Of a stretch of 46,057 nucleotides of DNA, positions 42,881 to 45,266 are shown piece after piece (position 1 is the first letter of the stretch; every line of letters begins with the position of its first letter). A program made the translations under genes and the position numbers. This DNA is from Acidocella sp. (GTDB taxonomy: Bacteria; Pseudomonadota; Alphaproteobacteria; Acetobacterales; Acetobacteraceae): positions 1-46,057 of the forward strand of contig NZ_DAIEIF010000048.1 of NCBI RefSeq assembly GCF_027352905.1, written 5' to 3'. Below the pieces are notes generated by a model. It was not told where the DNA came from. It worked only from the letters and a program-made list of their open reading frames with translations, and did not search any database.

Positions 42881-42886
42881 TATAAT

Positions 42887-43033
42887 TTAATATTTTTTAA
42901 GCGCCCCGCCGCGTCCTTCGCGGCGGCGGGTTAAATTCGCGCTCCGCGGAAAACTTCGTTCACCCATCTCGAATATAGTTGTTAATCTTTTCGCTTCGCG
43001 TTTCTTAAAAATAACACGCATTGCGTGCATTAA
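42887..43033. promoter_or_regulatory. TTAA-rich upstream region and palindrome before the CtrA-like gene
   Basis: Six TTAA tetramers begin at 42887, 42897, 42931, 42982, 43005 and 43030. TTAA is the half-site core of CtrA boxes (TTAA-N7-TTAA), although no pair here has the exact 7-base gap; the first two are 6 bases apart. A perfect palindrome CACGCA-T-TGCGTG lies at 43015-43027, 16 bases upstream of the -35 box. This looks like a regulated promoter, possibly by CtrA or the gene's own product (inference). Confidence 0.4.
42906..42926 (+). terminator. Possible terminator after the phosphatase gene
   Basis: CCGCCGCG (42906-42913) and CGCGGCGG (42919-42926) form an 8-bp GC stem with loop TCCTT, 26 bases after the stop. 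The following CGGGTTAAATT is only partly T-rich. It probably insulates the hfq-hflX-phosphatase unit from the downstream regulator. Confidence 0.45.
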
Positions 43034-43043
43034 ACAAAAAATA

Positions 43044-43071
43044 TTGACATTATGCTATCGCCGGTTGTATT
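43044..43071 (+). promoter_or_regulatory. Promoter of the CtrA-like regulator gene
   Basis: A perfect -35 box TTGACA (43044-43049) followed after 16 bases by TGTATT (43066-43071), a fair -10. The start point would lie near 43078, leaving a leader of about 20 bases with GGAGG at 43089-43093 before ATG 43099. Confidence 0.6.
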
Positions 43072-43098
43072 TCATGCCTCAACACCACGGAGGACATC

Positions 43099-43836
43099 AT
43101 GAAAATTCTATCTTTTGATACTGGTGCCATTAAAAAAGATTACCTTACGGCCTTTCTACGCTCGCGCATGGCCATCGTCGATGAAACCAACGACCCGGCC
43201 GAGGTCCTCGATCTAGTTAAATTCTATGATTACGACGCGATCCTGCTGCGTGTGTCGGAGACCCGGATGGGAGACCTCGATCTCATTCGCAAGCTCCGCC
43301 TGGCCCGGGTCGCGGTGCCCATCATCGCCATCGCCCAGATGATGAGCGAGGCGGCGCGGCTGCGCGTTCTGCAAAGCGGCGCGGATGATCTCATCGTCGA
43401 CGCGCTCTCCCATGAGGAAATCTTCATGAAGATACAGAACCTCATCCGTCGGTCCCGCGGCTTTCAAGACAACGCCCTGCGCATCGGTCGGGTCGAGATC
43501 AACATGAACGCGAAAAAAATCTTCGCCAACGGCAAGCCGGTCACGCTCACCAAAAAGGAATATCAGATCGCCGAGATCCTGGCGCTGCGCAAGGGCGTGG
43601 TTCTCAGCAAGGAAGCGATCCTCGATCATCTCTATGGCGGGCTGGACGAGCCCAACCCCAAGATCATCGACGTGTTCATCTGCAAGATCCGCAAGAAGCT
43701 CCAGCAGCTTGGCGTCAATGATTTCATCGAAACCAATTGGGGGCGCGGCTATATGGTCATCGACCACCGCCAGGACAAACCATCCCTGCCCGCGCCGCCC
43801 CACGCCCTGCCCCTCGCCAATCAGAGCGTGGCCTGA
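43099..43836 (+). CDS. CtrA-like OmpR-family regulator with a degenerate receiver
   Basis: A 245-residue protein aligned over its length with the cell-cycle regulator CtrA. The C-terminal winged helix (about 125-228) is strongly conserved: LTKKEYQIAEILALRKGVVL, DHLYGGLDEP, KIIDVFICKIRKKL and ETNWGRGYMV. The N-terminal receiver keeps the fold (KFYDYDAILL, SGADD) but not the chemistry. The phosphoacceptor Asp51 is Arg51 (ILLRVS for ILLDLN), the acidic pocket EDD at 7-9 is DTG, the switch Ser is Ala79, and the conserved Lys of TKPF is Asp101 (VDAL). It cannot be phosphorylated in the usual way and probably acts as a constitutive or partner-controlled DNA-binding protein. Strong binding site GGAGG precedes the ATG. 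Confidence 0.88.
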   Translation: MKILSFDTGAIKKDYLTAFLRSRMAIVDETNDPAEVLDLVKFYDYDAILLRVSETRMGDLDLIRKLRLARVAVPIIAIAQMMSEAARLRVLQSGADDLIVDALSHEEIFMKIQNLIRRSRGFQDNALRIGRVEINMNAKKIFANGKPVTLTKKEYQIAEILALRKGVVLSKEAILDHLYGGLDEPNPKIIDVFICKIRKKLQQLGVNDFIETNWGRGYMVIDHRQDKPSLPAPPHALPLANQSVA

Positions 43837-43988: not shown

Positions 43989-45266
43989 ATGAGATCGTTG
44001 AACGTAATCAAAACGCCGACCGGCGTGCAGGCGCCGCACCCTCTTGTCACCTTGCGTGGCAATGAATCCGGGCTTCCCAGCCATGATCTTCCCAGCGTGG
44101 AGAGCCTTGTCGCCTCTCTCCGGCCGGAGGAGCCGCTGCATTGCATACGCCCCCTGGCGATCACCGCCGCCGCTCGCGCCTTCGCCGCCGGTTTCCCGGG
44201 CGATGTGCTCTATGCCGTCAAATGCAACCCGGAACCCGCCGTGTTGCGCGCGGTCTGGGCGGGCGGCATCCGGCATTTCGATTGCGCCTCCATCGCCGAG
44301 GTTGAACTCGTCCGGCGGCTCTTTCCCGCCGCCATCATTCATTTCATGCATCCGGTGAAAGCCCGCTTCGCCATCCGCGAGGCGTGGACCAAGCATAACG
44401 TGCGCGACTTCATCCTCGATTCCGAGGCCGAGCTTCATAAAATCCTGGAGGAAACCGGTCAGGCGGCGGCCGCCCCCTCCGTCACGGCGGAGCGGCCCGG
44501 CCTGTTCGTCCGCTTCGCCCTGCCGGAGACCGGTGCCGCCATCAATCTTTCGCAAAAATTCGGCGCCGAGCCGGAGATGGCGGCCGCCCTCCTGCGCGCG
44601 GCGCGGCCCGTCGCGGCCCGGCTCGGCCTCGCCTTCCATGTCGGCTCGCAATGCCTGGCCCCCGCCGCCTGGGGCGAGGCCATCGCCATGGCGGGCGAGA
44701 TCATCCGCGCCGCCGGCGTGCCGGTGGAGGTGCTGGATATCGGCGGCGGCTTTCCCGTCGCCTATCCGGATATGGAGCCGCCCCCCCTCTCCGCCTTCAT
44801 GGCTGAGATCACAACCGCTTATGAGGCGTTGCGGATGCCGGGTCTCAGGTTATGGGCCGAGCCGGGCCGCGCCTTGGTCGGGGGCGGCGCCTCGGTCGTG
44901 GTGCAGGTGCAGCTGCGCCGGGGTGAGATGCTCTACATCAATGATGGCGTCTACGGCGCCCTCTCTGATGCGGGGGCGCTGCGCTTCCGCTTCCCCACCA
45001 GGCTGATCCCGGCCCGGCCCCGCCCCGGCGCGCCGGACGCGCCCTTTGGCTTCTTCGGCCCCACCTGCGATTCGCTCGACGTGATGCGCGGCCCGTTCTT
45101 CCTGCCGGCGGACGTGGCGGAGGGAGACTGGATCGAGATCGGCCAGCTCGGCGCCTATGGCGCCTGCCTGCGCACGGGCTTCAACGGCTTCGACCGCGCC
45201 ACCCTGGCCGAGGTGCGGGACGGCCCGATGATGGGAACGCCCGGATACGGGCCGGAGCGGGAATGA
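43989..45266 (+). CDS. Ornithine/diaminopimelate decarboxylase family enzyme (fold III PLP)
   Basis: A 425-residue alanine-racemase-fold PLP decarboxylase. PLP binds K78 in YAVKCNPEP; further motifs are HVGSQ (217-221), GGGFP (252-256), EPGRALV (291-297) and the dimer-interface CDSLD (C360, D361) with GAYGACLRTGFNGF near the end. The CDSLD and AVKCN forms match eukaryotic-type ornithine decarboxylases found in alphaproteobacteria, making putrescine for spermidine or homospermidine; lysine/ornithine dual use is possible. The start ATG 43989 directly follows AAGGGG, rather too close; TTG 43998 has better spacing to the same site. It is preceded by a 139-base gap and no other polyamine gene is adjacent. 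Confidence 0.88.
   Translation: MRSLNVIKTPTGVQAPHPLVTLRGNESGLPSHDLPSVESLVASLRPEEPLHCIRPLAITAAARAFAAGFPGDVLYAVKCNPEPAVLRAVWAGGIRHFDCASIAEVELVRRLFPAAIIHFMHPVKARFAIREAWTKHNVRDFILDSEAELHKILEETGQAAAAPSVTAERPGLFVRFALPETGAAINLSQKFGAEPEMAAALLRAARPVAARLGLAFHVGSQCLAPAAWGEAIAMAGEIIRAAGVPVEVLDIGGGFPVAYPDMEPPPLSAFMAEITTAYEALRMPGLRLWAEPGRALVGGGASVVVQVQLRRGEMLYINDGVYGALSDAGALRFRFPTRLIPARPRPGAPDAPFGFFGPTCDSLDVMRGPFFLPADVAEGDWIEIGQLGAYGACLRTGFNGFDRATLAEVRDGPMMGTPGYGPERE

Follow-up and report, generated by a model that had tools for sequence, protein, structure and literature searches.

The ctrA locus and its product

The window analysed here, a 46,057-nucleotide stretch of an Acidocella sp. genome, contains on its forward strand an orthologue of ctrA (positions 43099–43836, ATG start) whose 245 amino acid product has a receiver without the phospho-acceptor aspartate. 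CtrA is the textbook phosphorelay-driven cell-cycle regulator, and its activity depends on phosphorylation of Asp51 through the CckA-ChpT relay. Both of its Pfam domains score above their curated cut-offs (Response_reg, PF00072, 35.3 bits against 30.2; Trans_reg_C, PF00486, 67.8 bits against 26.2), and by this measure the window protein is an OmpR/PhoB-type response regulator. The receiver comprises amino acids 1–118 (43099–43452, forward strand) and is 30% identical to that of L123, a canonical CtrA of the family; the winged helix DNA-binding domain, placed by alignment at amino acids 126–222 (43474–43764, same strand), is 61% identical to the L123 domain, and its recognition helix, KIIDVFICKIRKKL, is that of canonical CtrA apart from a single Ile/Leu exchange. 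The close CtrA match of the DNA-binding half that a previous, sequence-only reading of this DNA had claimed is thus borne out. The nearest named relatives of the protein are from an Acidocella MAG (83% identity) and, farther away, an Acidiphilium MAG (64%). The best NCBIfam model is the CtrA equivalog NF045991, by its name a Rhodobacterales model; the score of 216 bits is under its cut-off of 350.

Alignment with canonical Acetobacteraceae CtrA proteins shows that E7-D8-D9 has become D-T-G, D51 has become R (codon 51, CGT, 43249–43251, forward strand), S79 has become A, K101 has become D, and F98, which we take to be the switch aromatic position of OmpR-type receivers, has become L. Every residue named in the sequence-only reading (the DTG pocket, Arg51, the switch Ala and Asp in place of Lys) is confirmed. 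These residues support its view that a receiver unfit for the usual Asp phosphorylation sits on a CtrA-type DNA-binding domain, and, since the usual phosphorylation would be impossible for such a receiver, they also favour its suggestion that the protein may exert control without phosphorelay input. The set of features by which a CtrA is usually recognised (Asp51 acceptor, acidic pocket, Ser/Thr and Lys) is lacking; what is present, a receiver fold without the acceptor Asp, is the definition of an aspartate-less receiver or pseudo-receiver.

A GGAGG at 43089–43093 (forward strand) resembles a ribosome-binding site as read from the sequence, and a footprint at 43002–43071 on the same strand has been kept across the genus (as seen in an alignment of 16 upstream regions out of 27 for the genus). 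It consists of a CTTAA..ACACG block followed by TTAAACAA..TTGACA, with GGTTGTA 13 bases on; by eye the TTGACA/GGTTGTA pair is −35/−10-like and near the expected distance, and a consensus promoter scanner called none at 43002–43071. A CtrA box (TTAA-N7-TTAA) upstream of ctrA itself was looked for and rejected: the 16 genus regions examined contain no exact match, and upstream of the window gene one match with a single mismatch, at 42886–42900, is at chance level (mean 0.81 in the window). GANTC sites are found in six of these 16 regions. Directly downstream of ctrA lies a gene for an ornithine/DAP-type decarboxylase (43989–45266), which adjoins ctrA at many loci of the genus and not at the Acidiphilium-type locus; because this pairing does not extend beyond the genus, synteny was rejected as proof of orthology.

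A single CtrA in the genus

The window genome (2.30 Mb, 99% complete) has one CtrA that we could find. Its next best proteins are OmpR-type regulators with at most 31% identity and E-values of 4.7e-16 or weaker, and a search of the assembly for a canonical CtrA with Asp51 gave none. Exactly one CtrA-like match at E ≤ 1e-30 is present in 22 of 25 genus genomes (window genome included); the three without a match are 77–83% complete, and ctrA is present in every one of the 25 that is at least 90% complete. The term "paralogue" in the sequence-only reading therefore does not hold, as no canonical CtrA was found beside the window gene, and its proposal of competition with canonical CtrA finds no second match at E ≤ 1e-30 in the genus genomes searched to compete with. 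In place of the separate layer over CtrA that it envisaged, the protein looks like the lineage's only CtrA, from which the relay has been removed (ChpT and CckA were not found; see below).

Arginine occupies position 51 in all 27 aligned genus sequences (25 distinct proteins; at least one named record duplicates one of our genomes) and in all five Acidiphilium-type sequences; the neighbouring genus g40 has Ser51. Since it is common to these two groups, Arg51 is no sequencing accident, and the alignment answers in the affirmative the question of whether it extends to relatives: it is fixed in the genus sequences aligned and not specific to one assembly. The window protein lies within the Acetobacteraceae CtrA tree, as expected of a protein of CtrA descent, on a long branch whose attachment point the tree does not fix.

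Selection and structure of the receiver

The receiver is under purifying selection. Its median pairwise dN/dS over the 27 genus sequences is 0.053 (310 usable of 351 pairs) and that of the DNA-binding domain is 0.023 (288 usable pairs), values that are rough because synonymous change is near saturation. R87, D96, D97, E107, K111 and R118, presumably the charges of the α4-β5-α5 dimer face of OmpR-type regulators, are present in 27 of 27 genus sequences. In an AlphaFold model (mean pLDDT 80.3, pTM 0.59) the (βα)5 fold of the receiver and the winged helix are both intact, with the active site gone. Among the 50 structure matches listed the best whole-chain fits are DNA-bound chains of PmrA and of CosR, a Campylobacter OmpR-type regulator that acts without phosphorylation (TM 0.74–0.76). 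Two of the top three are DNA-bound CosR chains; we place little weight on these fits because the partner CosR chains reach only 0.44 and domain placement in the model is uncertain.

ChpT and CckA

A ChpT profile matches none of the 25 genus genomes, although elsewhere in the class it matches 14 of 16 genomes. Across the family it matches 157 of 249 genomes, 150 of them above the cut-off; the 157 include G262, a further genus genome outside the 25, whose match is marginal (E 8.5e-4). CckA was sought in 44 genomes. The threshold of E ≤ 1e-60 was reached in 35, and 30 of the best hits were made into loci; the tree was built from the best CckA-like kinase of these 30 genomes and the second kinase of the window genome. 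The CckA clade (SH-aLRT 99) contains eight sequences, all from ChpT-bearing genomes, and those from the family have E-values of 1e-86 to 1e-111. At E ≤ 1e-60 the window genome has just two CckA-like candidates, both of which lie outside this clade, and four other genus genomes have no CckA-like match at that threshold. The absence of CckA is less firm than that of ChpT, as the test was built on best hits and the best hits of five ChpT-positive genomes (G043, G051, G087, G103 and G111) also lie outside the clade. With these observations the CckA-ChpT kinase chain appears to be gone from the Acidocella-type lineage.

Brilli et al. describe a Rhodospirillales cluster in which relay members are missing to varying degrees and chpT was not found, and did not find ctrA itself in Granulibacter; they also report cckA in relatives without chpT, which speaks against a firm absence of CckA (PMC2877005). 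A later count gives ctrA, gcrA and ccrM in 72–82% of Rhodospirillales genomes and chpT, cckA and divL in only 27–36% (PMC8116508). The same source describes ChpT as small and quick to diverge, so a substitute for it could escape detection.

The acceptor residue and ChpT across the Acetobacteraceae

We classified 102 CtrA sequences of the family, from genomes whose CtrA had been retrieved, by acceptor residue and by the presence of ChpT in the genome, with plus and minus labels assigned by hand (plus being a match at E 4.2e-5 or better). All 52 ChpT-positive sequences have Asp51. Thirty of the 42 ChpT-negative ones do not (16 Glu, 12 Arg, 1 Ser and 1 Ala), and the other 12 have Asp; eight sequences with doubtful ChpT (4 Asp, 2 Arg, 1 Glu and 1 Ala) were set aside from this count. 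The 42 are not one per genus (nine are from the window genus and three from an Acidiphilium-type genus), the genomes behind some of them are incomplete (G132 at 79%, G126 at 84% and G079 at 87%, among others), and in the case of L129 another member of the same genus has ChpT. Fisher's p for acceptor state against ChpT is 3e-15 with kinship ignored; once kinship is considered, the association goes back to few independent events, with a single starred independent pair and a sign test that does not reach significance. In a quick tree all sequences without Asp, except L234, lie within one clade of 47 (SH-aLRT 98), a clade that a careful tree did not resolve. Among the Acetobacteraceae sequences classified, then, no loss of the acceptor occurs outside genomes in which ChpT is missing or in doubt. 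Sequences with Asp51 and no ChpT do exist, some of them within the clade of 47, so an order in which the relay was lost first and the acceptor later would fit.

Glutamate at position 51 is found in named acetic acid bacteria, namely two Gluconobacter and Acidomonas methanolica (L040, L042 and L051). The other Glu51 sequences are L165, L166, L168, L170–L172, L175, L176, L178, L179, L181, L182, L184, L210, L234, L245 and L252; Ser or Thr at position 79 is kept in 20 of the 20, and 19 of the 20 have Lys or Arg at 101.

Some genomes of the family have unusual additional or damaged copies. One Acidiphilium-type genome (G270) has a second Arg51 CtrA, L247, on a branch longer than that of its first copy, and the ctrA frames of G102 (L256) and G072 (L253) are short or interrupted at the N-terminus. 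Six other genomes encode second, strongly degenerate CtrA-like proteins (L248–L251, L254 and L255), three of which have Gln at the acceptor position. Kinship of the window protein with these degenerate copies was considered and is unsupported, as they group apart (91/79, on long branches). The DNA-binding domain of the Arg51 clade scores 283–322 against those of twelve main CtrAs (53–61% identity) and 178–273 against those of the six second copies (35–54%).

CtrA boxes and the fliE promoter

The gene fliE was located in 11 of 14 genus stretches of 20 kb, which were placed by the position of flagellin (in G009 by fliE itself). Within 200 bases upstream of fliE, 10 of these 11 genomes have a TTAA-N7-TTAA box that is either exact (three genomes) or one mismatch away; the fliE promoters are related to one another, and G009 and G262 were noticed through their own N7 sites, so that with these two genomes left out the count is eight of nine. 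Thirteen other spacings give 0–5 of 11 at the same promoters, and none of 1000 dinucleotide shuffles reached 10. By eye, an A+T-rich, −10-like stretch follows 3' of the box at a similar distance in most of them. The fliE gene of the window genome is absent from the 100 kb of that genome examined; as it was not located, we infer a CtrA box at this fliE from its relatives. Nor was fliE found in the eight Acidiphilium-type stretches examined. The whole 20-kb flagellar stretches contain 62 one-mismatch N7 sites, as against 25–50 at nine other spacings, and the excess is mostly due to the 16 sites at fliE.

For a genome-wide view TTAA-N7-TTAA was counted against spacings 8 plus 9, pooled, in 33 genomes picked by hand. 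Four Arg51 Acidiphilium-type genomes show an excess of the N7 spacing (37 vs 28, p 8e-5), as do six other members of the class (103 vs 62, p 2e-14) and five Glu acetic-acid-type genomes (66 vs 59, p 6e-6), but one genome of the last group, G062, has 13 vs 26. The N7 spacing is not clearly enriched in nine ChpT-positive members of the family (25 vs 31, p 0.05), and it is not enriched in g40 (5 vs 11) or in eight genomes of the window genus (80 vs 137, ratio 1.17, p 0.15), where the ratio falls to 0.91 without one outlier genome. Among the eight, G020 stands apart from the rest, with 24 N7 sites against 14 for the other two spacings. The window genome has six N7 sites, and none of the four inspected by eye precedes a recognisable flagellar gene. 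Flagellin itself is present in 35 of 36 genomes tested and so does not separate the roles of CtrA.

Exact N7 sites were also seen upstream of genes that by eye are chemoreceptor-like, in two of 12 stretches, L315 (from G262) and L314 (from G191). In L315 the gene concerned has a globin-like start, and the site precedes its start codon by about 55 bases.

Alternative explanations

Several other accounts of an Arg51 CtrA deserve consideration. The sequence-only reading would have the protein compete, as a paralogue, with canonical CtrA at TTAA-type sites. Degenerate second CtrA-like copies such as L248–L251, L254 and L255 do occur elsewhere in the family, but with no canonical CtrA found in the 99% complete window genome or in the genus, and with an Arg51 clade that is separate from those copies and nearer to the main CtrAs in its DNA-binding domain, we reject this idea and give it almost no credence. 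We think it just as improbable that the gene is decaying and, the relay having gone, will itself disappear. The very long branch to the Arg51 clade and the short or interrupted frames of G072 and G102 could be read in that way, but the low dN/dS across the 27 sequences (about 0.05 for the receiver, 0.02 for the DNA-binding domain), the conserved upstream block and the presence of the gene in all the more complete genomes of the genus argue against it, and for the genus the substitution pattern rules it out. It is also very doubtful that phosphate is received at another residue, for example at Arg51 from an arginine kinase, or by way of another phosphotransferase; phosphorylation of Arg has been suggested for receivers that have it at the acceptor position (PMC4395418), but here the rest of the pocket has been lost too, and the Acidiphilium-type proteins keep the Arg yet also lose the first acidic residue.

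A less remote, though still rather unlikely, alternative is that the receiver has turned into a sensor or docking domain, in which a ligand, the acid or redox state, or a partner protein acts on the remodelled pocket and toggles CtrA. The constancy of R51, T8 and L98 and the replacement of K101 in 27 of 27 genus sequences, together with purifying selection, would suit such a role, and there are aspartate-less receivers that respond to other inputs, such as RitR, one of the structure matches to our model. On the other hand, no partner gene was seen to travel with ctrA (the decarboxylase is not at the Acidiphilium-type locus), and no ligand-binding feature came to notice.

A probable phosphorylation-independent CtrA

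The most likely explanation is that the protein is a phosphorylation-independent CtrA whose action is set by its amount or by its partners. The Acidocella-type lineage would have lost the CckA-ChpT phosphorelay and retained its single CtrA, a step with which the lost acceptor and pocket, the single gene copy and the failure to find a ChpT or CckA orthologue, all evident from the sequence comparisons, are in accord. The receiver would then have abandoned Asp phosphorylation and persisted as a folded dimerisation module; purifying selection has acted on it, and the dimer-face charges, the DNA-binding domain and, in the relatives, the fliE box have demonstrably been retained in sequence. It is because the receiver was kept as such a module that, we propose, unphosphorylated CtrA could dimerise, bind TTAA-N7-TTAA boxes and activate, for example, the fliE-fliF flagellar operon. 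Output would be set by the level of CtrA, through its synthesis and degradation, or by protein partners. We consider this reading as a whole, from a sole CtrA and a lost relay through a receiver kept for dimerisation to unphosphorylated activation of genes of the fliE-fliF type, to be probably correct.

We hold with somewhat less assurance, while still favouring it, a wider version in which a branch of the Acetobacteraceae lost the relay, CtrA persisted, and the acceptor was rebuilt, to Glu in acetic acid bacteria or to Arg with a new pocket in the Acidocella and Acidiphilium types, such that CtrA there would be hard-wired and phosphorylation-independent and would still run the flagellar hierarchy. 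If true, these lineages would be nature's equivalent of the laboratory alleles and would put the relay's purpose to a natural test, for where CtrA is strongly selected and the relay apparently gone, functions of CtrA that are independent of the relay should be revealed. Ready-made tests are offered by the natural D51E of Gluconobacter and relatives, by the natural D51R of the Acidocella and Acidiphilium types, and by the Asp51 sequences without detectable ChpT.

Comparison with known systems

The window protein has its domains arranged as in CtrA from Caulobacter and other Alphaproteobacteria and resembles it in the DNA-binding domain and recognition helix, and relatives of the window genome share with them the TTAA-N7-TTAA box at the flagellar operon. 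It differs from the Caulobacter type in having no acceptor Asp, intact acidic pocket, switch Ser and aromatic residue, or Lys, and its genome differs in that ChpT and CckA were not found. The D51E change is used as a phosphomimetic CtrA allele in Caulobacter and Rhodobacter (PMC12186491, PMC6363796), and in a model of gene transfer agent control in Rhodobacter capsulatus unphosphorylated CtrA acts on its own (PMC6363796). Like CtrA(D51E), the window protein should be free of Asp phosphorylation, and the two Gluconobacter and Acidomonas methanolica carry that Glu naturally; unlike it, the window protein has Arg and a pocket remodelled throughout.

Decay of the relay in Rhodospirillales has been published, and we found no report of loss of the acceptor in the open-access literature. 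PMC2877005 uses none of the words receiver, aspartate and D51, and the titles and abstract openings among the open-access matches listed for Acidiphilium, Acetobacteraceae, Acetobacter and Gluconobacter gave no treatment of the CtrA receiver; two of the papers listed do not mention CtrA anywhere in their main texts. Outside the CtrA family, ChxR of Chlamydia and HP1043 of Helicobacter are dimers without phosphate (PMC3960148). With these and CosR the window protein may share an OmpR-type mode of action without phosphorylation, a likeness hinted at by the CosR chains among the best fits to its model, whose partner chains fit poorly; these regulators belong to other families with other DNA targets, and here a whole phosphorelay appears to be missing behind a known master regulator. 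The lack of an acceptor Asp is shared with the aspartate-less receivers and pseudo-receivers (PMC4395418, PMC12632262); neither main text mentions CtrA. As judged from sequence, the window protein is a CtrA that is also an aspartate-less receiver protein, from an acid-loving lineage in which the searches did not recover the relay. Arg at the acceptor position is uncommon among such receivers, accounting for 63 of the 2,976 sequences in one set (PMC4395418).
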